Shown here piece after piece: positions 37,634 to 50,024 of a DNA stretch of 64,000 bases (position 1 is its first letter; every line of letters begins with the position of its first letter). Origin of the DNA: Chloroflexota bacterium (GTDB lineage Bacteria; Chloroflexota; Anaerolineae; Aggregatilineales; Phototrophicaceae); assembly GCA_011523615.1 (NCBI GenBank), contig WTGJ01000027.1, positions 645,333-709,332 on the forward strand, read 5' to 3'. The position numbers and the translations under genes were made by a program. The notes under the pieces are model-generated. The model searched no databases. It was not told the DNA's origin and saw nothing but the letters and a program-made list of their open reading frames with translations.

Positions 37634-38509
37634 TCATTCTCCCGCAGCGCTGCGGTAATGATACGTCATGGGTTGGGCGACGTTGATTTCAGCAATGGTT
37701 ACGCCTTCTTCCCTGGCCAAGGAATGCATCTCAGCGGCGACGGCAGCCCTGTACTCAAAATCGCCACCCCTGCCGTACCAGACCACCGTTTCTTCATCCA
37801 GCCAGTGGCCCAAGCCGCGAAAAGGATTCGGGTCAAACAGAACGGGTGCATCAACTTGGTCCGGTACAGATTGCAACAATGCTAGGACATCGTCGACGAG
37901 CGAGGCGACGAATGCCTCGTCATGATCCCGTTGCTTTTGCACCGCTGCGCTGGAAACGACCAGAGGCAAACTCAGCTGTTTCAAATACACCGGCATGATT
38001 TCTCCATGCTGCGTGACCCAGACGGAATGCTCACCCGCTTGCCAAACGAACAAAGGCTGTTTTTCTATGATGTGGATTTGCACCGTCCCCAATGGCCAAC
38101 CCACTTGTACCTCAGCCTCTTCGATCCCGGGTTGGCGCAACAGGCTCTCCCGGATTTCAGCTGGGTTCAGCCAGAATACATTCTTTCGCGCAACGCCGGT
38201 CATTCCGATCATTTCTTCATGGGTGTAATAGGACACTCCAGCCAAAGAAATCGCATTCACATAAAAGGCGGGCGAAATCACAAATTGTAGGATGAGCAAG
38301 GCGATGCAAAGGATGATCGCTCCACTGAACCAGCGCTGCCTCCCCCGCATAATTCTTCGGCCCGATTGCCGATGTTTTTCTCGAAATTGACGGGCGCGGA
38401 CACGTTTGCGCAGTGCACTCGCGGTTTTCTCATTGCTGATGACATCCATGGCAACCATAAACACAGCATAATCTGAATCGGTGAGACCGCAATGAGCGTC
38501 ACCATTCAC
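37634..38509 (-). CDS. ftsQ: Cell division protein FtsQ/DivIB
   Basis: Divisome scaffold linking FtsL/FtsB and FtsI/FtsW. 291 residues: basic cytoplasmic N-terminus, one membrane helix (about 67-88, IILCIALLILQFVISPAFYV), then a POTRA domain (ISLAGVSYYTHEEMIGMTGV, LLRQPGIEEAEVQVGWPLGTV) and a beta domain with VWVTQHGEIMPV. The position between murB and ftsA is canonical. GTG 38509 overlaps the murB stop by 11 bases; ATG 38458 and 38449 are alternatives without better ribosome sites. Confidence 0.9.
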   Translation of the reverse strand: MNGDAHCGLTDSDYAVFMVAMDVISNEKTASALRKRVRARQFREKHRQSGRRIMRGRQRWFSGAIILCIALLILQFVISPAFYVNAISLAGVSYYTHEEMIGMTGVARKNVFWLNPAEIRESLLRQPGIEEAEVQVGWPLGTVQIHIIEKQPLFVWQAGEHSVWVTQHGEIMPVYLKQLSLPLVVSSAAVQKQRDHDEAFVASLVDDVLALLQSVPDQVDAPVLFDPNPFRGLGHWLDEETVVWYGRGGDFEYRAAVAAEMHSLAREEGVTIAEINVAQPMTYHYRSAAGE

Positions 38510-39431
38510 CGATGTGTTCTATTTCCAGTTGGAGTTGAATGCCGCAGCGTTCCCACACCTTACTTTGCACCCTTTGAATCAACTCATCGTAATCCGCAGC
38601 ATCCGCAGCGCTCACCTCCGTACCGCGGTTGATGAAAAAGTTGGCATGCTTATGGGATACCTCCACTTTCCCTACCCGATATCCCTTCAACCCCGCTGCT
38701 TCAATGATCCGGCCCGCATGATCCCCTGCTGGATTCTTGAAGATGCTGCCCAGACTCGCACCCGCCGGTTGCGTTTGCTTCCGCAGCGTTTTCAATTGCT
38801 GCATCCGTTGCTCAATTTGTTGGGGATCTCCTCGTGGCATAGTCAGCTCAGCAAACAGAATCAAGAAGTCTTTCTCGGGCGCCGCCTTCCAACGTGAGTT
38901 GCGGTAGGCGTATTCCATTTCATGCGCTGGAATGTTGCATCTTCCCTGCCCCTTGATGAGGATTTCCGCTTTTGTCAAACTGGAGGAGATATCACCCCCA
39001 TGAGCGCCGGCGTTGTTGACCACGGCCCCGCCTATGGTGCCAGGAACCGTCGCAAGCCACTCCAAACCGGCAATCCCTCTCCGTTGAGCAAAGCGCGCCA
39101 AAGAACCCAGTGAGACGCCGGAACTGACTTGGATCACGGCGAGATCGTCATGGAGCTCCGTGCACCGTACGGAATGGTTCTCGTTGATGACCACCAGCCC
39201 ACGGACGCCACGGGGCGCGATCAGCACGTTGGCACCCTTACCCAGGACGCGCACCGACCACCCACGCTGCCATGCTTCTTGCACCACGGCGATCATTTCT
39301 TCTTCACCATTGCGAGCGTGATACAGCCAATCGGCCTCCCCCCCCAAACGGGCAGCCGTAAATCGAGCCAGGGAAGCATTTCTCGCAACTAGCTGTTCCA
39401 AACGATCAGTTTGCAATTTCTTCCCAATCAT
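38499..39431 (-). CDS. murB: UDP-N-acetylenolpyruvoylglucosamine reductase
   Basis: FAD enzyme making UDP-MurNAc. 310 residues, the short MurB type. FAD-binding VLGKGANVLIAPRG and VPGTIGGAVVNNAGAHGG, then MEYAYRNSRW, the active-site region PAGASLGSIFKNPAGDHAGR and AAGLKGYRVG, and SHKHANFFINRG. Its 5' end overlaps murC by 26 bases, and its 3' end overlaps ftsQ by 11 bases, consistent with a tightly coupled operon. Confidence 0.96.
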   Translation of the reverse strand: MIGKKLQTDRLEQLVARNASLARFTAARLGGEADWLYHARNGEEEMIAVVQEAWQRGWSVRVLGKGANVLIAPRGVRGLVVINENHSVRCTELHDDLAVIQVSSGVSLGSLARFAQRRGIAGLEWLATVPGTIGGAVVNNAGAHGGDISSSLTKAEILIKGQGRCNIPAHEMEYAYRNSRWKAAPEKDFLILFAELTMPRGDPQQIEQRMQQLKTLRKQTQPAGASLGSIFKNPAGDHAGRIIEAAGLKGYRVGKVEVSHKHANFFINRGTEVSAADAADYDELIQRVQSKVWERCGIQLQLEIEHIGEW

Positions 39432-40791
39432 TCAATAAAGACTCGCCGATGGAAGCCGCATCCCCCGCACTCAGGATGAGCACGCAAGCAGGAATTTGCA
39501 GCCTGGCAATGATCTGAGCCAGAGCAGCGCTGGCATCTGGAGCGAAATGTACCCGCGGATGTAGGATCGCAGCGGTCAGTGCGGCGCCATGGATGCCAGC
39601 GATCGGTTTTTCCCTTGCGGCAAAGATTTCAGTGACGATCACTTTATCCGCTCCTTGAAATGCGCGTGTGAACCCATCCCACAAAGCTGCGACGCGACTG
39701 AATGTGTGCGGTTGCCAAACCACGACCAGTTGTCGCTCCGGAAACTTCTGTCTGGCTGCCGCGATCGTAGCGCGAATGGCAGTGGGATGGTGTGCATAAT
39801 CGTCGACGACTGCCAAACCCGCTCGCTCACTCCGAACGTTCATCCTGCGTTCGACTCCGGGAAAGTCCTGGAGCGCTGCCGCAGCTTTCTCCCAGGGGAT
39901 GCCATACTCTGCCGCAGCCAAGAGGGCAGCGGCCGCATTCCACAAATTGTGTTCACCGACCAGCGCCAGCGCCAACTCGGCTGCCGCCACCCCCTGGTGC
40001 ATACAAATTGCTGTGCAGCCAAGTGGAGATTTCCGTATTTGCGTGAGCTGCAGATCTGCGGAAGCGGCACCACCATAGCTGGCAAGGCGTAGATCAGCAT
40101 TCAATGCCGCCACAGTCTGACTTAGGAGCGGATCGTCTGCACAGTGAATCAGGCGACCGCCCGGCAATATGCGCAAAGAAAACTGGCTGAACGCTTGAAC
40201 CAGTGCATCCAGATCGGGGAAAAAATCGGGGTGATCCAGCTCAAGGTTCGTGATGAGTGCTGTTTCGGGGCACAAACCCAGAAACATATGGTCGTATTCA
40301 TCGGCTTCTACGACGAAGAGATCATCTGTACCAACACTCGCGTTTTCACCACTGGCCAACCGGCTGCCCAGGATGAATCCGGGAGAAAGACCGCTCTTGC
40401 GCAAGATGTGGACGAGCATGGCCGTGGTCGTCGTTTTGCCATGAGTGCCGGCGATGGCGATGGTCGGACGGGGACCGATTACCGTTTGCATGATATCGGC
40501 TCGTCGATATGTGGGGATGCCTTTTCGCCGGGCGGCGTCCACCTCCCCCATGCCTTCTTCATCGATGGCAGAGGTGTAGATCACGGCAGCAGCATTTTCG
40601 ATCTGCTGTGCATCATGGCCCAGCTGGATCGCCACGCCATCCTTCGCCAACGCTTCGGTCATTGGGTTGGCTTGCTTGTCAGAGCCGCTCACACTATGAC
40701 CACGTTCCCATAGAACACGCGCGATGGCCGATAACCCCGAGCCACCGATGCCGACCAAGTGGATGTGCATCGATGGCGGCCAATCTTCCAT
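39406..40791 (-). CDS. murC: UDP-N-acetylmuramate-L-alanine ligase
   Basis: Adds L-Ala to UDP-MurNAc. 461 residues. N-terminal HIHLVGIGGSGLSAIARVL, ATP loop IAIAGTHGKTTTTAMLVHIL, VVEADEYDHMFLGL and LVVVDDYAHHPTAI. ATG 40791 with GAAGG a few bases upstream is chosen; an in-frame GTG at 40812 overlaps the upstream stop (GTGA) and is also plausible. It follows the second of two CvpA-like membrane genes. Confidence 0.96.
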   Translation of the reverse strand: MEDWPPSMHIHLVGIGGSGLSAIARVLWERGHSVSGSDKQANPMTEALAKDGVAIQLGHDAQQIENAAAVIYTSAIDEEGMGEVDAARRKGIPTYRRADIMQTVIGPRPTIAIAGTHGKTTTTAMLVHILRKSGLSPGFILGSRLASGENASVGTDDLFVVEADEYDHMFLGLCPETALITNLELDHPDFFPDLDALVQAFSQFSLRILPGGRLIHCADDPLLSQTVAALNADLRLASYGGAASADLQLTQIRKSPLGCTAICMHQGVAAAELALALVGEHNLWNAAAALLAAAEYGIPWEKAAAALQDFPGVERRMNVRSERAGLAVVDDYAHHPTAIRATIAAARQKFPERQLVVVWQPHTFSRVAALWDGFTRAFQGADKVIVTEIFAAREKPIAGIHGAALTAAILHPRVHFAPDASAALAQIIARLQIPACVLILSAGDAASIGESLLNDWEEIAN

Positions 40792-40808
40792 ACAACCTTC
40801 GAATCGAT

Positions 40809-41345
40809 TCACAATCGGATCCAGGCATAGGATATGGTGGCGACGATGCCGAACAGCAAGACCTCAAAGGGGCCTCCGGTCCAGCCGAGCAATGGAAGCT
40901 GCAAGAATGCCGCGGCCGAAGCGGTATCCGGGCCGGGGGCCGTGATCAGTGGTGCAAAAGGATACAGGTGAATATCCAATAGATACCAGAGTGCTGTGAA
41001 GAATAGATAACCATTCATCCCTCCCAATAGCCCACCCCACAGCAATGTGAGGAGCCGTTTCCGCCACCCGTTGGAGAGATTCGCGGATTGCGCAGCGGCG
41101 GAACGAATGAGCAAGTGAGCCATGAAATATACCAGCGCCAGGATCATCGCTTCTAAGGCAAACAAATGACTCATGGACATGAATCGCAAGATGACATGCC
41201 GAAACCAGCCATCCAGTTGGAGAATGGAAAACACGACCGAAACGAGCAATCCCAAAGTCCATAACTCTTTTTTCCAGCCGCGGCGCATTCCCAGTACCGT
41301 GAAAAAAACGACCCCGATCCAAAGCATCGCCGTCATTGGGATCAT
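40809..41345 (-). CDS. CvpA-like membrane protein B within the dcw cluster
   Basis: 178 residues with about four membrane helices: starts WIGVVFFTVLGMRRGWKKELW, a G-RRG turn that also opens CvpA proteins, then helices near 29-45, 63-83 and 101-125. The block at 102-130 (WGGLLGGMNGYLFFTALWY and HLYPF) is shared with the neighbouring gene, showing that the two are paralogues. A weak resemblance to the CvpA (colicin V production) family is my inference. No known dcw gene is this. Function unknown; genomic position suggests a role in lipid II supply or septal synthesis. Confidence 0.75.
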   Translation of the reverse strand: MIPMTAMLWIGVVFFTVLGMRRGWKKELWTLGLLVSVVFSILQLDGWFRHVILRFMSMSHLFALEAMILALVYFMAHLLIRSAAAQSANLSNGWRKRLLTLLWGGLLGGMNGYLFFTALWYLLDIHLYPFAPLITAPGPDTASAAAFLQLPLLGWTGGPFEVLLFGIVATISYAWIRL

Positions 41346-41352
41346 GACATGC

Positions 41353-41898
41353 TCAGATCACGATCAAGACGATCAGGAACGCGCCGACAACCATCAATGT
41401 GAATACATCGCCGCTGCCGGTTGGGCCACCCACCAACAGGTAGTGCGGTAACCACTGCGTCCATTCTGGATTCACATTGATTGCACCCTCTGCCCAAAGC
41501 GGGTAATCATTCATATGAATGTAGTACCAAACCGAACCGCTGATCAGGTAGCCATTCACCGCGCCGATCAAGCCGCCCAGAATCCCTTCTTGAAACTGAC
41601 TGCGCTGGTTCAGCCTCTCCCCGGTCACCCGAGCCCACAATCGAGAACCGATGACGGCTCGAGTATGGTAGGCTGCCGAAACGATGCCGGTGAACAGCAA
41701 CACTTGAACCAGCAAATGCAGCCCGGCGCTGCCACCAGACAGCAGTTCGTTGCGGATGAGCGCATCGAACTGATGCAAGGCAAACATAGCGAGCAATATC
41801 CCAGCGGATGAGATCAGTTCCAGGCTGAAACCCCTGCGGGAACCAATGTACACGAACACAAAGATAGCCAATAGGATGAGGATCCTGAGATCTATCAT
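41353..41898 (-). CDS. CvpA-like membrane protein A within the dcw cluster
   Basis: 181 residues, about four to five membrane helices. N-terminal ILLAIFVFVYIGSRRGFSLEL has the G-RRG turn; the block at 106-134 (ILGGLIGAVNGYLISGSVWY and DYPL) matches its neighbour. Its ATG at 41898 lies one base after the murG stop, and the paralogue follows after seven bases, so the pair is embedded in the murG-murC part of the operon. I do not recognise an experimentally defined homologue. Confidence 0.75.
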   Translation of the reverse strand: MIDLRILILLAIFVFVYIGSRRGFSLELISSAGILLAMFALHQFDALIRNELLSGGSAGLHLLVQVLLFTGIVSAAYHTRAVIGSRLWARVTGERLNQRSQFQEGILGGLIGAVNGYLISGSVWYYIHMNDYPLWAEGAINVNPEWTQWLPHYLLVGGPTGSGDVFTLMVVGAFLIVLIVI

Positions 41899-41899
41899 G

Positions 41900-42994
41900 T
41901 CATTCGGCTACTTTCAAGAGTTCTTTCGCCAACAACTCTGCTCCATTTTGCGCCTTCATTTTCCCAAAATTACCGCGCATCTGCTTCAACTTGGAGCCAT
42001 CGTCGCGGCTTAAATCACGCACGGTCGGCAGCAACGATTGGAATAATTCTTCTTCGCGGATCAAGGTAGCCACACCTCGGTCCGCAAGATATTGTGCATT
42101 GACTTGTTGATAGCGCCATGGATTCGCCAGTGGAACCAGGATGCTGGGTGTGGCGTACACCGCACTTTCGGCCAATACACTGGCGCCCGCCCGCGACAGG
42201 ATCAGGTCGGCCGCAGCCATCGCGACGCCAATGTCATCCAGATACGGGAATGCGTGATAATGTTCCTGTGGAACATCAGCCCTCTCCCTTTTGAAATCTT
42301 GCCAATTGTTCTGACCCGTTGCATGGATGATTTGCCAACCATCTTCGAGCAATGCTGATGAAATGGAAAGGAGGACCTGGTTCAGGATTCGCGCACCCAA
42401 GCTACCGCCAAAAACCAGCAAGGTTGGTTTGTTTTCATTCAGCTGGAATCTCCGTATGCCATCTTTCCTTCCATGACCTAGGAAACTCTTGCGCAACGGG
42501 TAACCGACCACGGTGCACTTGCCTGCTGAAAAATACTGCTTCGATTCTTCGGTGTGGAGCGCCACTCGGTCGACGAACGGCGCTAAAGTTTTGATGGCCA
42601 GACCCGGTTCGATATCCGGCAGGTACATCACGCGAGGGATGCGCAACAACCAGGCAGCCAAAGCCACGGGAAATCCCGTCCACCCGCCGGTGAGGAACAG
42701 CACGCGCGGTCGGTCCAGCAACAACAGAATTATGGATTGCAGAAAACCCAAGGCCAACGAGATCATGCTCCGCAACTTGCGCAACAGGCTCAAGCCGTGG
42801 ATCGGGCCGGCCAGGATCTCAGAATATCGGTACCGGGGCAGCTGGAAAGCTTCGATGTATTGCCGTTCTGGGCCGCCGAATACACCGACAAAATGAAGCT
42901 CAAGCTCTGGATTACGGTCGGTAAGCGCTTCTGCGGTGGCCAAAGCGGGGTATAGATGACCGCCAGTTCCGCCGGCTGCGATCATGATGCGCAA
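41900..42994 (-). CDS. murG: UDP-GlcNAc:lipid I N-acetylglucosaminyltransferase
   Basis: Makes lipid II on the inner membrane face. 364 residues, GT-B fold. N-terminal G-loop MIAAGGTGGHLYPALATAEA, second-domain G-loop LVFGGSLGARILNQ, and donor-site RAGASVLAESAVYATPSILVPL (key part AGASVLAE). The usual HEQN motif before the second Gly-rich block reads PDIEPG (126-131), so the acceptor side diverges from enterobacterial MurG. The ATG at 42994 overlaps the 3' end of ftsW by 83 bases. Confidence 0.93.
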   Translation of the reverse strand: MRIMIAAGGTGGHLYPALATAEALTDRNPELELHFVGVFGGPERQYIEAFQLPRYRYSEILAGPIHGLSLLRKLRSMISLALGFLQSIILLLLDRPRVLFLTGGWTGFPVALAAWLLRIPRVMYLPDIEPGLAIKTLAPFVDRVALHTEESKQYFSAGKCTVVGYPLRKSFLGHGRKDGIRRFQLNENKPTLLVFGGSLGARILNQVLLSISSALLEDGWQIIHATGQNNWQDFKRERADVPQEHYHAFPYLDDIGVAMAAADLILSRAGASVLAESAVYATPSILVPLANPWRYQQVNAQYLADRGVATLIREEELFQSLLPTVRDLSRDDGSKLKQMRGNFGKMKAQNGAELLAKELLKVAE

Positions 42995-44243
42995 AATCGA
43001 TACTCCGTCCTCTTCGGGTCGCTTCCACTACATTCACGCGATTCACGCTGAGCAACAAGCCCACACTGGATAGCATGGTCACCAACGAGGAGCCACCATA
43101 ACTGATGAAGGGCAAGGGTACTCCCGAAGCGGGCAGCAGAGAAGCCATCACGGCGATGTTCACCATCGCCTGCGTGATGACCATGGTAGTGATGCCGATA
43201 GCGAGCAAACTCCCCAGCGAATCTTTCGCCCGTAAAGCGATCAGGTACCCACGATACGCGAACACGATATAGAGACCGATGACAGCCATACCGCCCACCA
43301 CGCCCAATTCCTCCACCAAAATGGCGAAAATGTAGTCTGTATGCGGTGCGGGCAAGCGACCGGCGAACTTTTGCAAACTGTTTCCGATCCCCAACCCCAG
43401 CATGCCCCCGTTGCGAAAGGCAATCCTCGCCTGCCGCGAGTGATAATCGGCTGCACTGAGACTATCCAACCCGCGTACAAAATGATCCACTCTTTCACCC
43501 ACATACGAAAGCGCATCGCTACCCGAAACCAGGATCAATGCCAGAATGATCAGGCCGAGTACCAACATCAAAAACAACTGTTTCATCGTCGCGCCGGACA
43601 AAAAAAACATCGCAAACGAAACGCTGATGATGATGGCCACTGTGGTCAAGTCCGGCTGCAGGAAGATCAGGCCGGCGATGATGCCGACGATCGCCAGATA
43701 TGGCAGCAAGCCCAGGGTGATGCTGCGAATGCGGCCATGATTGGTGCTCAGCCACGTTGCGAGATACACGACGGTGACGAGCTGGGCGACTTCACCGGGT
43801 TGAATCGACCCGCCGATGAGCGATCGTCTCGCGTTGATCAAGGTGTCGTCGCCATAAAACAGCACCATGACCAACAAAGCGATGGTCAGGATCAAAGCGG
43901 GAATGATCCATTTTTTCCATATGCGATAATCCATGAAGGTGAAGGCGAACAAAATCATTGATCCGATGGCGGCATTGCGCAATTGTTGCTTGAGGATCGA
44001 GCCCACCGAACCGAATAGCTGATAGCTCCAATCCAGCGTAGCACTGTAGACCATCATCAAGCCAATGATGAGCAAGGTTGCGGTAACGACCAACAAGGGG
44101 ATATCCATTGCCATGAGCAACTGACGAAGGAGTGAATTGGATCGGACGCGGGGGATGCCCAATCGCAACTGGTTCTGGGTATTCCCTTGCTGGATGACGC
44201 TCTCTTCAGGCATGTGGATGTATGAATCTGGGTTCAAGATCAT
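42912..44243 (-). CDS. ftsW: SEDS glycosyltransferase FtsW
   Basis: Polymerises lipid II at the septum. 443 residues, about ten membrane helices. Family blocks: FLQPDLTTVAIIISVSF, RNGGMLGLGIGNSLQKF, then PAPHTDYIFAILVEELG containing the proposed catalytic Asp (D303 of HTD), and LPFISYGGSSLV. The active site looks intact, unlike that of the ftsI-slot protein. The C-terminus is a 35-residue Arg-rich tail that extends into murG in another frame (83-base overlap), which is unusually long. It follows murD by four bases. Confidence 0.94.
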   Translation of the reverse strand: MILNPDSYIHMPEESVIQQGNTQNQLRLGIPRVRSNSLLRQLLMAMDIPLLVVTATLLIIGLMMVYSATLDWSYQLFGSVGSILKQQLRNAAIGSMILFAFTFMDYRIWKKWIIPALILTIALLVMVLFYGDDTLINARRSLIGGSIQPGEVAQLVTVVYLATWLSTNHGRIRSITLGLLPYLAIVGIIAGLIFLQPDLTTVAIIISVSFAMFFLSGATMKQLFLMLVLGLIILALILVSGSDALSYVGERVDHFVRGLDSLSAADYHSRQARIAFRNGGMLGLGIGNSLQKFAGRLPAPHTDYIFAILVEELGVVGGMAVIGLYIVFAYRGYLIALRAKDSLGSLLAIGITTMVITQAMVNIAVMASLLPASGVPLPFISYGGSSLVTMLSSVGLLLSVNRVNVVEATRRGRSIDFAHHDRSRRNWRSSIPRFGHRRSAYRP

Positions 44244-44247
44244 TTCA

Positions 44248-45618
44248 TTATAAGGACATCACCAATTCGTGAAAGTGCTGCCCTCTGGCTTCAAAATTGC
44301 GGTAGGCATCGTAACTAGTCCCCCCGGGCGAGAGCAAAACCACGTCGCCCGCTTGCGCCAATTGCTTCGCGCATCGCGTCGCCTCGGCCAAACCGGAGAG
44401 GCGATACAAGGGAGGAACATCCTTTGCCAGTCGCCGCCATTCTCGTTGAATCATGGGGGCAGCCTCCCCAAACAGGATGACGGACCTTACCTGGGTGGTG
44501 ATTCGTTCCAACAATGGCCGCCAAGGCAAATCTTTATCCTGACCACCCAACAATAAAATCAATGGTTCGTCGTAGCTGGCGATCGCCGCGATCACCCGTT
44601 CCGGTGATGTGGCGATGCTATCGTTGACATAACTGACGCCATCGAGGTTGCGGATGGGCTGCAGGCGATAGGCGACCGGTTGAAACGAACGGATGGCTTG
44701 CACCATCGCAGCCAATTCCACGCCCGCGATCCGCGCGACGGCGCAAGCAGCCAAGGCGTTGGCCCAGTTGTGTTTCCCGCGTAGGGGGATCTCTTCGCGG
44801 TGCAGCAAGGGGATGCGTTCCTGGTCTTCAAACAAGCACAATTGCTCCTCGAATAAGTACGCCCCGTTTCGATCGATCGGTTGCATCCCAAACCAGCGGA
44901 GTTGCCCTCGCGCTCTCGAGGCCAGCTTCCTACAGTGCGCATCATCTGCTGAGAGTACCACCCAGTCATCCGCTCGCTGCCATTTCATGATGTGGTGCTT
45001 CGCTTCGATGTAGGCTTCCATGCTTCCGTGGCGGTCCAGATGGTTGGGCGTCAGATTCAGTATGGTGGCGATGCCCGGGCTCGATCGCATCCATTCCAAT
45101 TGAAAGCTCGATAATTCCATGACCACGTGGTCATGCGGTTGCATGCGTGGCAAATCATCCAGCAATACCCGTCCGATGTTGCCACCGACCCACACGCGGT
45201 TGCCTGCTGCCCGCAACATCTCTCCGATCAGGGAAGTGGTCGTAGTTTTCCCGGCACTGCCGGTGATGCCGATCACTTTCGCCGGGCAATGCTCGATGAA
45301 GATTTGCGCATCATTGGTGATCGGCAGTGAGCGAGCCAACGCAGCTTGGATGTAAGGGTGTTCATTGGGGACGCCACCGGAGATGCAAAGGGCATCCCAA
45401 TCTTGCGGCAATTTCAATTGTGGATCATCAAACTGAAAACGAACACTCGGATGATCGTCGGCCGAAAAATCAATTGCGTCCGCACTGCGTCGATCGCTGA
45501 CGGTGATTTTCGCAGCTCTGCCCTGCCACCATCGGGCCAGGGATTGACCGCCGCGGCCAAAGCCGATGATCCCGATGTGTGCAGCTCGGAACTTTTCAAT
45601 ACTCTCGTTTCGTTTCAT
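44248..45618 (-). CDS. murD: UDP-N-acetylmuramoyl-L-alanine-D-glutamate ligase
   Basis: Adds D-Glu to UDP-MurNAc-Ala. 456 residues from ATG 45618, which overlaps the mraY stop as ATGA. The frame is open further (to 45699), but that part lies inside mraY. Rossmann start IGIIGFGRGGQSLARW, ATP loop VIGITGSAGKTTTTSLIGEM, NLTPNHLDRHGSMEAYIEAKHHI (key block NHLDRHGSMEAYIEAK) and LLLGGQDKDLPW, and the C-terminal LLSPGGTSYDAYRNFEARG where canonical MurD has SPACASFD. Confidence 0.95.
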   Translation of the reverse strand: MKRNESIEKFRAAHIGIIGFGRGGQSLARWWQGRAAKITVSDRRSADAIDFSADDHPSVRFQFDDPQLKLPQDWDALCISGGVPNEHPYIQAALARSLPITNDAQIFIEHCPAKVIGITGSAGKTTTTSLIGEMLRAAGNRVWVGGNIGRVLLDDLPRMQPHDHVVMELSSFQLEWMRSSPGIATILNLTPNHLDRHGSMEAYIEAKHHIMKWQRADDWVVLSADDAHCRKLASRARGQLRWFGMQPIDRNGAYLFEEQLCLFEDQERIPLLHREEIPLRGKHNWANALAACAVARIAGVELAAMVQAIRSFQPVAYRLQPIRNLDGVSYVNDSIATSPERVIAAIASYDEPLILLLGGQDKDLPWRPLLERITTQVRSVILFGEAAPMIQREWRRLAKDVPPLYRLSGLAEATRCAKQLAQAGDVVLLSPGGTSYDAYRNFEARGQHFHELVMSL

Positions 45619-46649
45619 AACAAAGCGAGTGAGACGCCGATCAAAGCGCTGAGAATCCCCACGAGCCAAAACCGTTGGACAATCTGTGTTTCGCTCCATC
45701 CGCCCAATTCGAAATGATTGTGGAGCGGAGCTTGCCGGAACAAACGGCGCTCATTTTGTGAACCCCAGAATCGTCGTGTGAATTGCGCGGAAGCAATTTG
45801 CAAGATCACACTGACCGTCTCAGCTACCGGTACGATGGCGATGATCGGCAGGAGCAACCATCTTCCCGTCATCACCGCTACCGTGCCCAACACGGCCCCT
45901 AGGGCGAGCGAACCCGTATCACCCATGAACAGCTGAGCCGGATGGGCGTTGTACCATAAAAATGCGAAACAAGCGCCGACCAGGATGAAGCAAAGTTGAG
46001 TCAAGAAGATTTGTTGCTGGAGATAGGCGATGACGCCAAACGCGCCGAATGCGGTCGCTGTAATGATACCTGCCAGGCCATCCAGACCGTCGGTAAAATT
46101 AACGGCGTTGGAAGTCGCGACGATGATGAATACCACGATGGGGATGAACAGCCAGGGACTGACGGGAAGGCTCACATGAATCAAGGGGAAATTGATTTCG
46201 TTGGCGAAGTCAAAACCCCCATCGTATTGCGATATCAATACCGCAGTGATCAACGCCAAAATGAATTGGCCAATGAATTTCAATCTTTTGTTCAATCCCT
46301 GCCCGACTTCTGCAGTAGATTGCCGGATGCCAGCTCGGTCGTCGATGTAGCCCAAGAAGGCATATCCGCCCATGACAAAGAGTGGGAGCATCACACTTGC
46401 ACCGTGGCCACTGCTGACAATGCGCACCATATTGATGGTCAACGTAAGGGATATGGTCGTGAACACGATCATCAATCCACCCATCGTCGGGGTGCCGATT
46501 TTGCGCTGATGGGCCGGGCTCAATTCCACCTGAATCAACTTGCCGACTTTCAATATCTTCAGGACTTCGATGAACGGGCCACCCCAGATCACTCCGAGTA
46601 AGAAAGCAATCGCACCCACCGACAATGAAAAAGGTAAGCCAGAATCCAT
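45615..46649 (-). CDS. mraY: Phospho-N-acetylmuramoyl-pentapeptide transferase
   Basis: Makes lipid I from UDP-MurNAc-pentapeptide and undecaprenyl phosphate. 344 residues, ten membrane helices. Motifs: QRKIGTPTMGGLMIV, FLGYIDDRAG with the DD pair, ATSNAVNFTDGLDGLAG, LFMGDTGSLALGA and PLHNHFELGGWSETQIVQRFW (His cluster). It lies between the ftsI-slot gene (11-base gap) and murD. murE and murF, which normally separate ftsI and mraY, are missing here. Confidence 0.97.
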   Translation of the reverse strand: MDSGLPFSLSVGAIAFLLGVIWGGPFIEVLKILKVGKLIQVELSPAHQRKIGTPTMGGLMIVFTTISLTLTINMVRIVSSGHGASVMLPLFVMGGYAFLGYIDDRAGIRQSTAEVGQGLNKRLKFIGQFILALITAVLISQYDGGFDFANEINFPLIHVSLPVSPWLFIPIVVFIIVATSNAVNFTDGLDGLAGIITATAFGAFGVIAYLQQQIFLTQLCFILVGACFAFLWYNAHPAQLFMGDTGSLALGAVLGTVAVMTGRWLLLPIIAIVPVAETVSVILQIASAQFTRRFWGSQNERRLFRQAPLHNHFELGGWSETQIVQRFWLVGILSALIGVSLALL

Positions 46650-46659
46650 CGGTTACGGT

Positions 46660-48456
46660 TCAGTCAGCATCTGGTTCAGACCGCGCCATTCGATCACTCA
46701 GATCCCATGAGGTTCGATCCGCTTCGGGCAGAATTTCCAGCTGGATCACCAATTTTTCCATCAAATTTTGTGTGATGGGCCAGAGTACGGTCGGAGCCGA
46801 TTCACCACTCGTGGGCTGTTCCAACTTGATCAACAACACAAATTCAGGCTCATCGACGGGGAAAATACCCACAAATGTCATGTTGTATTCTTCCGCGGCG
46901 TATCCCGTGAGATCTGGTATCGCAGCTCGAGCAAAGTAACCGGCCAGCTCGTAGTCATGCAATCCGGCAAGGGTGGCCGTATCATTCACGATGTTTTGCT
47001 GCAGCAATTCCAGCAGATGGGCCGCATTCTCTGCGGAAAGCACTCTTTTGCCATACGTAACCAGTGTAGGCTCAATGCTCCGCGCACCTTCCACCGATGA
47101 GTGATCCCAGACTTGGGAAACCAGATGGGGTTGCATCATCACCCCTTCATTGGCGATGGCGGCATACATCGAAACCAACTGCATTGGTGTGACTTCCAGC
47201 AAATGACCATAGGAGTTGCGCAGGAGGTGCTCATCGCTCCATTCCGTATGTCCTGGTAAACGCAATTCCCCCGCCGCTTCCCCGGCCAAATCGATGCCGG
47301 TCGTATCCCCCAAACCAAACCTACCCAACGCTTCGTAAAATGCGGTCGCGCCCATTTCTATGGCCACTTCGGCCGCCCCAATCTGCGTCCCGTGAACCAG
47401 GATCTCTTTGATGCCCACTTCGCCATAGGCAGCCAAATCGGCATTGACCACCCGTTGACCACTGAAGATCAACTCCCCACGATCCAGGAATCGCCATTCT
47501 GGTGAGACGCTCTTGTTTTCCAGGGCACCTGCAAGGGTGATCGGAATCATGATAGCCCCCGGCTCATAGGCTGCACCGATGGCGTTGTTCTTCAATACAT
47601 TCGCATCTTCGATGGCAAAAAAACGATTCGGGTCATATCCCGGCAAATTGGCCATGGCCAACACTTCACCCGTTTCGACGCCCATGAGGATGATGCTCCC
47701 AGAGATCGCTTGCGTGGTTTCCAATGCCTGATCCAGGCTATCTTCCACAAAAAACTGGATTTCGCGATCCAGGGTCAACGTCAAATCATGGCCCTGATCC
47801 TCGTGGTGTAGGTCGGGCGGGACGTCATACAGATTCGCACCAAGCGATACATCGCGGGTTTTCCCAGAAAGTAAGTTGTGGTAATACCCCTCTATGCCAA
47901 AACCACTGGGTTGGTTCACATCGTAATTGATGAAACCGATCACCTGGGCTGCCAATCGGTTCTGAGGATAAGTGCGTCGGTTCAACATGGAGATATCGAT
48001 TCCCAATATGGCCAACTCATCCAAGGCCTGGCATCGCTCACCGGGAAGCGGCTCCAGCACGCTCACCAAAGACTGCCACAACACATCGCTCGCTGCGATT
48101 TCATAGAGTTCTTTGACACTGCGCTCCACTAATGGAGAGAGCTGCCGGGCCGCTGAAAGGGGATCACGGATCAAAGGCGGATTGATGGCGACGGTACAGG
48201 CCATTTGATTGACCGCCAATTCAGCGCCGTTGCGATCGTAAATGGTGCCACGCGCACCTTGAAACTGGATCGTTCCTTCGTATAACGCCGCTCTCTGAGC
48301 ATCGACATAAGCGGCATCCGGTGCGGACAAAGCGCCAATGGCCAGGGAAGTCAGCCTCATCATCAGGACCAGACTGAGCAATAACAATGCCAACAAGACA
48401 AAGGGAAGCCTGAGGCGAAGCGTTTCCAATAAATTGTCTTCGTTCGCGTTTTCCAT
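46660..48456 (-). CDS. Class B PBP-like protein in the ftsI position, transpeptidase motifs lost
   Basis: 598 residues with one N-terminal membrane helix (about 17-40), a PBP dimerisation/pedestal domain (GARGTIYDRNGAELAVN, AAQVIGFINYDVNQPSGFGIEGYY shown by VIGFINYD and GIEGYY), and a transpeptidase-fold domain. All three catalytic motifs are absent: SxxK reads YEPGAIMI (Ala301, Ile304), SxN reads HGTQIGAA (Gly356-Thr-Gln358), and KTG reads GYFARAA (Tyr507-Phe-Ala). Neighbouring non-catalytic blocks (GYDPNRFF, LGRFGLGDTTGIDLAGE, NSYGHLLEVTPMQLVSMYA, FVGIFPVDEP) remain, and the frame is intact, so this is a pseudo-enzyme and not a decayed gene. It probably serves as a structural or allosteric partner of FtsW. 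Cross-linking must come from elsewhere. Confidence 0.88.
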   Translation of the reverse strand: MENANEDNLLETLRLRLPFVLLALLLLSLVLMMRLTSLAIGALSAPDAAYVDAQRAALYEGTIQFQGARGTIYDRNGAELAVNQMACTVAINPPLIRDPLSAARQLSPLVERSVKELYEIAASDVLWQSLVSVLEPLPGERCQALDELAILGIDISMLNRRTYPQNRLAAQVIGFINYDVNQPSGFGIEGYYHNLLSGKTRDVSLGANLYDVPPDLHHEDQGHDLTLTLDREIQFFVEDSLDQALETTQAISGSIILMGVETGEVLAMANLPGYDPNRFFAIEDANVLKNNAIGAAYEPGAIMIPITLAGALENKSVSPEWRFLDRGELIFSGQRVVNADLAAYGEVGIKEILVHGTQIGAAEVAIEMGATAFYEALGRFGLGDTTGIDLAGEAAGELRLPGHTEWSDEHLLRNSYGHLLEVTPMQLVSMYAAIANEGVMMQPHLVSQVWDHSSVEGARSIEPTLVTYGKRVLSAENAAHLLELLQQNIVNDTATLAGLHDYELAGYFARAAIPDLTGYAAEEYNMTFVGIFPVDEPEFVLLIKLEQPTSGESAPTVLWPITQNLMEKLVIQLEILPEADRTSWDLSDRMARSEPDAD

Positions 48457-48483: not shown

Positions 48484-48957
48484 TTAAGGCTGGGCAAACT
48501 CCTGCCATTGGCGCTGGAATCCTGCCCACCAGGAGCTGTCTTGCATCTCTCGCGGGTCGGATGAGATGATCAAAAGGGCCTCCTCTTCTCCTGTTTTGCT
48601 TGCTGTTTCTGTGGTGTGGTGAGAGACTTGCGGGACTTGGAGGTAACGAATCTCTTCTCGGCTTGCATGCTGAAAACCCAGCGCTTCCGCTCGTTGCTGG
48701 AGTTCAGCCAGATTCTCTCTGGCCGTAATCTCTGCGCGCAATAGATTCACTTCTCGATACAACGAATCACGATACGACAACAACTCATCCAGGGCATGTC
48801 GTTTGTGGGCTACAGAGGAAATCTGCAAGACATAGATGATGCCAGCCAGCAGGACCAGCGCACCCGACAACCACAAAATGATTCTGGTCTGCTCACGAGG
48901 GTTCCATCCCGAAGAGCGAAAGACGTGTTGAATCCAGCTTTGCGGTAGTGGCGTCAC
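48484..48957 (-). CDS. ftsL: FtsL-like divisome protein
   Basis: 157 residues from a GTG that overlaps the rsmH stop by one base. Single membrane helix (about 25-46, IILWLSGALVLLAGIIYVLQ) followed by a short heptad coiled coil (LDELLSYRDSLYREVNLLRAEITARENL), the architecture of FtsL/DivIC. The conserved feature is position (rsmH-ftsL-ftsI), because sequence conservation of FtsL is poor. After the coiled coil comes a polar tail of about 60 residues with two Trp-rich spots (SSWWAGFQRQW), longer than in most FtsL. It probably associates with FtsQ and the FtsI-like protein. Confidence 0.82.
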   Translation of the reverse strand: MTPLPQSWIQHVFRSSGWNPREQTRIILWLSGALVLLAGIIYVLQISSVAHKRHALDELLSYRDSLYREVNLLRAEITARENLAELQQRAEALGFQHASREEIRYLQVPQVSHHTTETASKTGEEEALLIISSDPREMQDSSWWAGFQRQWQEFAQP

Positions 48958-49907
48958 TATAATGCCTCCACGACTCGCAACCTGGCGCTTCGACTCCGCG
49001 GATTGCGTGCGATTTCGCGAGACTGGGCCCGAATGGGTTTCCTCGTCACCCGCTTCACCGTAGCGACATGACCACAATCACAAAGCAACTTCTCGGGTGG
49101 ACAGATGCAATTTCGACTCGCTTCTTGAAAGAATCTCTTGACGACTCGATCTTCGACGCTATGAAAACTGATCACTGCCAAACGGCCCCCCGTTCGCAAA
49201 AGACGGATGGCTTGTGGCAGCGCTTTTTTCAGGATGCCCAGCTCGTCATTGACGAACATTCGGATCGCTTGAAACGTGCGCGTAGCCGGGTGAATCTTCG
49301 CGCGCCGACTTCCAGCGCCCTTCACGCGCTCCACCAGCTCACTCAATTGCTTCGTAGTGTGTATCGGGCGTTCCGCCCCAATCGCCCGGGCGATGGCCCT
49401 GCTCTGCGGCTCTTCACCATAAGCCAACAGCACCTGGACAATTTCGGATTCCCGCGCAGCATTCAACCAATCGGCGGCGGTATCGCCACTCGCGCAATCG
49501 TATCTCATATCCAAAGGGCCATCCAATTGGAAGGAAAAACCGCGGACAGGCGTGGCGACTTGCACAGAGGAAAAGCCCAAATCCAACAAGATGCCGTCCA
49601 CTTCATGCCAGCCAAGCTCAGCCGCCGCCGCGACCATATCCAGATAACTGCGGTGCTTCAGTTGAAAACGAGGTGCGTATTTCTGCAATCGATCGGTTGC
49701 ATGAGGGAGAGCCGCCGCGTCGCGGTCCAGCCCCAAGAGTTGATGCGTGCAATGTTCGAGCAATGCCTCGCTATGCCCCCCCATACCCACCGTCCCGTCA
49801 ATCACGTGCTCCAAGACGCCCGACCGATCACTTCCAAAAACCCGAATTACCTCTTCCAGTAAAACTGGTTCGTGGATCGGGAATTCAGCCTGATTCCTGT
49901 GGATCAC
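48957..49907 (-). CDS. rsmH: 16S rRNA (cytosine1402-N4)-methyltransferase
   Basis: SAM-dependent N4-methylation of C1402 in 16S rRNA. 316 residues from a GTG at 49907; the frame is open to 50018. Blocks: HEPVLLEEVIRVF, VIDGTVGMGGHSEALLE (SAM loop), LLDLGFSSVQVATPVRGFSF (key part DLGFSSVQ), GAGSRRAKIHPATRTFQAIRMFVNDEL (key block HPATRTFQAIR) and AVISFHSVEDRVVKRFF. It is the first gene of the dcw cluster; mraZ is absent, and uvrC is divergent. Confidence 0.94.
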   Translation of the reverse strand: MIHRNQAEFPIHEPVLLEEVIRVFGSDRSGVLEHVIDGTVGMGGHSEALLEHCTHQLLGLDRDAAALPHATDRLQKYAPRFQLKHRSYLDMVAAAAELGWHEVDGILLDLGFSSVQVATPVRGFSFQLDGPLDMRYDCASGDTAADWLNAARESEIVQVLLAYGEEPQSRAIARAIGAERPIHTTKQLSELVERVKGAGSRRAKIHPATRTFQAIRMFVNDELGILKKALPQAIRLLRTGGRLAVISFHSVEDRVVKRFFQEASRNCICPPEKLLCDCGHVATVKRVTRKPIRAQSREIARNPRSRSARLRVVEAL

Positions 49908-49959
49908 AGTATGAATTATGATACACCAAACACCCACCGGCGCTGGGCAGAATGCTGAA

Positions 49960-49990
49960 ATGACATCGAACCAGCAGGATGGCCTATAAT
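49960..49990 (+). promoter_or_regulatory. Promoter of uvrC
   Basis: Plus strand: ATGACA (49960-49965), 19 bases, TATAAT (49985-49990). The -10 box is perfect, and the -35 box matches five of six, although the spacing is long. Initiation near 49997 gives a leader of about 28 bases. Confidence 0.55.
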
Positions 49991-50024
49991 CATCAAGAAC
50001 AGACACTTTTCCAACCATCCTGAT

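Follow-up and report, generated by a model that had tools for sequence, protein, structure and literature searches.

FtsI is regarded as the defining transpeptidase of the division septum and as a main target of beta-lactams. To our knowledge, its core function, whether catalysis or the activation of FtsW, has so far been probed mainly with engineered mutants. The locus described here, in a 64,000-nucleotide stretch of a Chloroflexota genome (the window), raises the same question in nature: what does FtsI do in a lineage in which its catalytic residues are missing?

An FtsI homologue without catalytic motifs

The ftsI-slot gene of the window (46660–48456, minus strand) starts with ATG and encodes 598 residues in a frame without internal stops. 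It lies on the same strand as the rest of a conventional dcw cluster (rsmH-ftsL-ftsI-mraY-murD-ftsW-murG-murC-murB-ftsQ), which begins with rsmH (mraW; 48957–50018) and ftsL (48484–49077), the latter assigned by its position and by weak similarity to the gene in the same slot of relatives, with no Pfam match. Directly downstream of ftsI is mraY (45615–46649), followed by murD (44248–45699), ftsW (42912–44243), murG (41900–42994), murC (39406–40812), murB (38499–39431) and ftsQ, which has a POTRA domain (37634–38509). The product of ftsW, a SEDS glycosyltransferase (PF01098, 260 bits) and the presumed partner of FtsI, keeps the catalytic aspartate motif H301-T-D303 (43335–43343, minus strand), so that the window FtsI has the cognate FtsW expected for a SEDS activator. 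This gene order and the intact HTD motif had been read from the sequence in a preliminary description of the locus, and both readings hold.

The same description had claimed a full-length PBP2/FtsI-like protein, which Pfam searches (Transpeptidase, 149.7 bits; PBP_dimer, 43 bits) and structure prediction bear out. The AlphaFold2 model, built with an alignment of relatives as input, has a mean pLDDT of 88 across the entire protein, and C. difficile SpoVD is the closest solved relative both by sequence (7rcz, the top PDB match) and by fold (Foldseek, TM 0.86 by target length; P. aeruginosa PBP3 was also matched). Membrane helix, PBP_dimer pedestal and transpeptidase fold are all present, the gene is flanked by ftsL and mraY, and it is orthologous to the live FtsI of relatives, which identifies the protein as FtsI by descent.

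The three motifs of a penicillin-acylating D,D-transpeptidase (SxxK, SxN and K[TS]G) are nonetheless all missing. Their positions, set by alignment to SpoVD and FtsI, are occupied by A301-I-M-I304 (47545–47556; codons GCT ATC ATG ATT), G356-T-Q358 (47383–47391; GGG ACG CAG) and Y507-F-A509 (46930–46938; TAC TTT GCT), all on the minus strand and at the residues originally proposed. Rescue by displaced motifs was ruled out, as a search for SxxK, SxN, K[TS]G and KxG returned no occurrence elsewhere in the 598 residues. By its lost catalytic residues we infer that the window FtsI is a natural pseudoenzyme, predicted to lack transpeptidase activity in vivo.

Inactive FtsI in related genomes

Intact motifs in all close relatives, according to the preliminary description, would have pointed to a sequencing error or recent decay; instead, two further genera of the window's family (f1) and a second family of the same class (f40) carry inactive versions. 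We searched 98 f1 genomes and recovered a confident FtsI orthologue in 92. Nearly all genera have live FtsI among the recovered sequences, including the genus nearest to the window (SVMK/SLN/KSG). The SxxK lysine is missing in 33 of the 34 species of genus g17, in all three species of g19 and in the window's own genus, g1. All other sampled f1 genera have it, save one low-coverage contig, where an apparent loss in G085 (SIFN; coverage 1.5) is probably an error. The sole g17 exception, G091 (UBA6055), has a live FtsI and is the first branch of the genus. Inactive g17 proteins read SxxQ, SxxL or TxxQ at the first motif, often SLD or SLH (ESR in one case) at the second and KPG, KAG or MPG at the third, while those of g19 read SLMQ, SLN or TLN, and TAG.

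Genomes across the class were scanned for absence of the live [YF]EPGSxxK motif and their genes were then read, which added G203 (ATFM/SRI/ISS) and G153 (ATQM/SRI/FSS) of family f40. In both of these, an FtsW homologue shares strand and contig with the inactive ftsI. Reading of the remaining f40 members added G459 (SVFT/SYN/KFG), which brought the predicted inactive FtsI proteins to 40 species overall. Of the genomes outside f1 that lacked the scan motif and were checked, most had a variant flank and not an inactive FtsI. Across the phylum, SxxQ-type FtsI gave one match in 400 genomes, the level of a reversed-pattern control, in a scan to which losses of the AIMI or ATFM type are invisible. 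As loss of the lysine has happened repeatedly and is fixed in entire clades, motif loss goes well beyond chance, and sequencing error or the decay of a single genome can be ruled out. A search of open-licence papers returned no description of a naturally inactive FtsI, a scope that leaves novelty unproven.

Every g17 and g19 protein retains Ser or Thr at position 301, and Gln304 is conserved in nearly all of them. Catalysis might therefore persist in these genera through a rearranged active site with the glutamine serving as base in place of the lysine. We regard this as very unlikely, because the serine has gone altogether from the window protein and from two of the f40 proteins, and because no inactive species has an unaltered KTG motif and many have a changed SxN as well. 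Some residual activity is formally conceivable in most g17 species, in g19 and in one f40 species, where Ser or Thr is kept at 301.

The genome is smaller in each of the three inactive f1 lineages than in the live relatives closest to them (2.6 vs 4.1–4.7 Mb, about 3.0 vs 6.3–6.8 Mb and a median of 4.2 vs 8.5 Mb), in a set of three comparisons only. FtsI matches were lacking in G006, G076, G080, G072, G017 and G020, most of them fragmented assemblies; for G006, G076 and G080, f1 genomes of 89–91% completeness without an FtsI orthologue, either assembly gaps or complete gene loss are possible. The FtsI of G391 (locus L264) looks live (SIYK/SLN/NTG) with NTG replacing KTG, possibly an early stage of the same process.

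Independent origins of the loss

In an FtsI tree built with the motif columns removed, the inactive f1 proteins fell in three places: g19 beside live g9, g17 beside the live G091, and the window protein beside live g5. A single clade of all inactive f1 proteins was rejected (p = 4e-5), as was a clade of g17 and g19 (AU test, p = 4e-95). Because the window branch is long, FtsI alone does not exclude a grouping of the window protein with g19 (p = 0.19) or g17 (p = 0.23). Six proteins of the Mur operon, however, rejected the grouping of the window with g17 (p = 4e-80) and with g19 (p = 0.019, the weakest rejection among the origin tests). Within f40, one origin and two were not distinguishable (p = 0.148). 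A single origin of inactivity is thus rejected by both the FtsI and the Mur-operon phylogenies, and the trees indicate at least four separate losses of predicted FtsI catalysis in the class, possibly five.

Maintenance of the inactive protein

Where it could be tested, the inactive FtsI is, judged from its substitution pattern, under strong purifying selection. The median pairwise dN/dS over 126 pairs was 0.084 in g17, and g19 gave 0.096, compared with 0.104–0.129 in live groups. Relative to the Mur enzymes, the terminal branches of the inactive g17 proteins did not exceed those of live FtsI in length. The inactive proteins have also retained their place in the operon, together with an FtsW whose HTD motif is intact. 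Genus g1 is represented by one genome, and selection on the window copy was judged by its open frame and conserved columns. Of the columns conserved in live FtsI, the window protein keeps 85% in the pedestal and the rest of the transpeptidase domain, and 56% near the motifs.

A dispensable FtsI drifting towards loss, of which the window copy would be the most advanced stage, could account for the loss of all three motifs and for the length of the window branch in the FtsI tree (2.31 changes per column, about twice the rate of the Mur proteins). It could likewise accommodate the acceleration of neighbouring division proteins: measured against the Mur proteins, FtsI, FtsL and FtsQ of the window lineage are sped up about two- to threefold and FtsW about 1.3-fold. 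Such decay is difficult to reconcile, however, with an open frame of 598 codons whose codon-position GC resembles that of the neighbouring genes, with a high-confidence predicted fold and well-kept columns outside the motifs, and with the retention of the protein by 33 g17 species at the low dN/dS given above, and we consider it unlikely. The joint acceleration of FtsI, FtsL and FtsQ suggests a remodelled divisome and not the decay of a single gene. FtsL and FtsQ are the fastest dcw proteins of the window lineage relative to the Mur proteins, ahead of FtsI.

Candidate septal cross-linkers

The preliminary description had suggested that another PBP or an L,D-transpeptidase does the septal cross-linking and had called for a genome search for class B PBPs and YkuD proteins. 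Besides FtsI, the window genome (94% complete) encodes five PF00905 proteins, all with intact motifs: two lipoprotein-like MecA_N PBPs with a lipobox-like sequence, a PBP2 beside RodA and two class A PBPs. There are also three YkuD proteins and only two SEDS proteins, RodA and FtsW, and no second FtsI paralogue was present among the PF00905 proteins found in this 94% complete genome.

Active MecA_N class B PBPs accompany the inactive FtsI in the window genome and in its family. Two of them were found in nearly all tested f1 genomes, whether FtsI is live or inactive, and the back-up therefore predates the losses, which it may have permitted. In the five inactive relatives whose lipoprotein PBPs were read, these keep an SxN-type motif and KTG, and SxxK was directly matched in several; other active PBPs are kept in every genome examined. 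B. subtilis PBP3 and S. aureus PBP2A, which in experiments stand in for a division PBP deprived of its catalysis, also belong to the MecA_N type (PMC5656894, PMC9426605). For f1, the proposal can thus be narrowed, with the two MecA_N-type lipoprotein PBPs of class B as the leading candidates for the septal cross-linker. No such narrowing holds for f40: the inactive f40 genomes have PBP2 and class A PBPs only, with no MecA_N PBP in G153 or G459 and only a 212-residue orphan in G203. A MecA_N back-up is not, therefore, a general requirement. In G203 and G153, the strand that carries the inactive ftsI also has, about 14–16 kb upstream of it, a gene for a YkuD L,D-transpeptidase of 264–265 residues (G203:C162:11937, G153:C8:84533).

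Low affinity is a known property of MecA_N PBPs (PMC5656894), and a division protein that cannot be acylated would be immune to poisoning by beta-lactams. The transpeptidase domain might accordingly have been selected for a new binding role, either as a sensor of stem peptides or as a beta-lactam-proof division partner, and the conservation of Ser301 and Gln304 in g17 is in keeping with this. The residues of the pocket are mostly gone from the window protein and two f40 proteins, however, which makes a selected pocket quite unlikely as the general explanation.

A proposed non-catalytic partner of FtsW

The explanation that we favour, with a probability of about three in four, is that a natural pseudo-FtsI is kept as the structural partner and activator of FtsW while cross-links are supplied in trans. 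Its membrane helix and pedestal would hold the protein in the divisome, where it would connect FtsQLB to FtsW, recruit FtsW and activate it allosterically; septal cross-links would come from the other intact transpeptidases, and the activator function would maintain FtsI once those enzymes had taken over catalysis. The proposed activator role, already put forward in the preliminary description, fits the retained pedestal, slot and FtsW as well as the behaviour of engineered, catalytically dead PBP2B, SpoVD and PBP1 (PMC5656894, PMC12713402, PMC9426605).

In E. coli, where FtsI shares slot and architecture with the window protein but is catalytic, the pedestal activates FtsW through contact with the ECL4 loop independently of transpeptidation (PMC8078798). 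B. subtilis can do without catalysis by PBP2B only as long as it has active PBP3, which is a MecA_N PBP, so that the S309A mutant offers a divisome class B PBP without catalysis beside a MecA_N transpeptidase (PMC5656894). That loss, however, is an engineered point mutation in a laboratory strain, whereas the losses described here are natural, recurrent and fixed in clades. In S. aureus, transpeptidation by PBP1 is dispensable given mecA (PBP2A) although the PBP1 protein itself is essential (PMC9426605); this division PBP without a needed transpeptidase activity (PBP1*) is again engineered and, unlike the window protein, depends on an acquired resistance gene. In C. difficile, an inactive SpoVD (S311A) can still sustain a division event by way of SpoVE, the SEDS protein with which it works, and PBP3 partly stands in for it (PMC12713402). 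An inactive class B PBP is thus paired with a SEDS protein, as here; SpoVD differs in acting at sporulation septa and in carrying an engineered residue, wild-type SpoVD being catalytic, unlike the window protein.

The graded series of motifs among lineages suggests an order of decay, in which the lysine would be lost and KTG altered while Ser or Thr is kept (g17, g19), before all motif residues (g1) or nearly all (two f40 proteins) disappear. It seems rather likely that the class has at least four times independently converted FtsI into a non-catalytic activator, permanently splitting septal polymerization by FtsW and pseudo-FtsI from cross-linking. That FtsI has stayed intact and selected without its catalytic residues in several separate lineages suggests that its essential job in them is to switch on its partner enzyme and not to cross-link the wall. 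A natural, recurrent and long-kept inactive FtsI would thus offer an evolutionary answer on the core function: if the explanation is right, activation and not catalysis is the function of FtsI that selection must preserve. The set of inactive proteins also provides ready-made separation-of-function variants, in graded stages of decay, for studies of SEDS activation.

Two further features of the window's cluster were observed. Between murG and murC lie two genes for small membrane proteins (40809–41345 and 41353–41898), one of which matches Colicin_V (CvpA-like, PF02674) and the other no Pfam family; in several relatives neither was found at this place. Around the catalytic aspartate (residues 289–315), the window FtsW has the sequence GRLPAPHTDYIFAILVEELG and, upstream, an insertion of one residue; the compared relatives have HTDSIFAVIGEE or nearly so. 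This is possibly a compensatory change accompanying the inactive FtsI.
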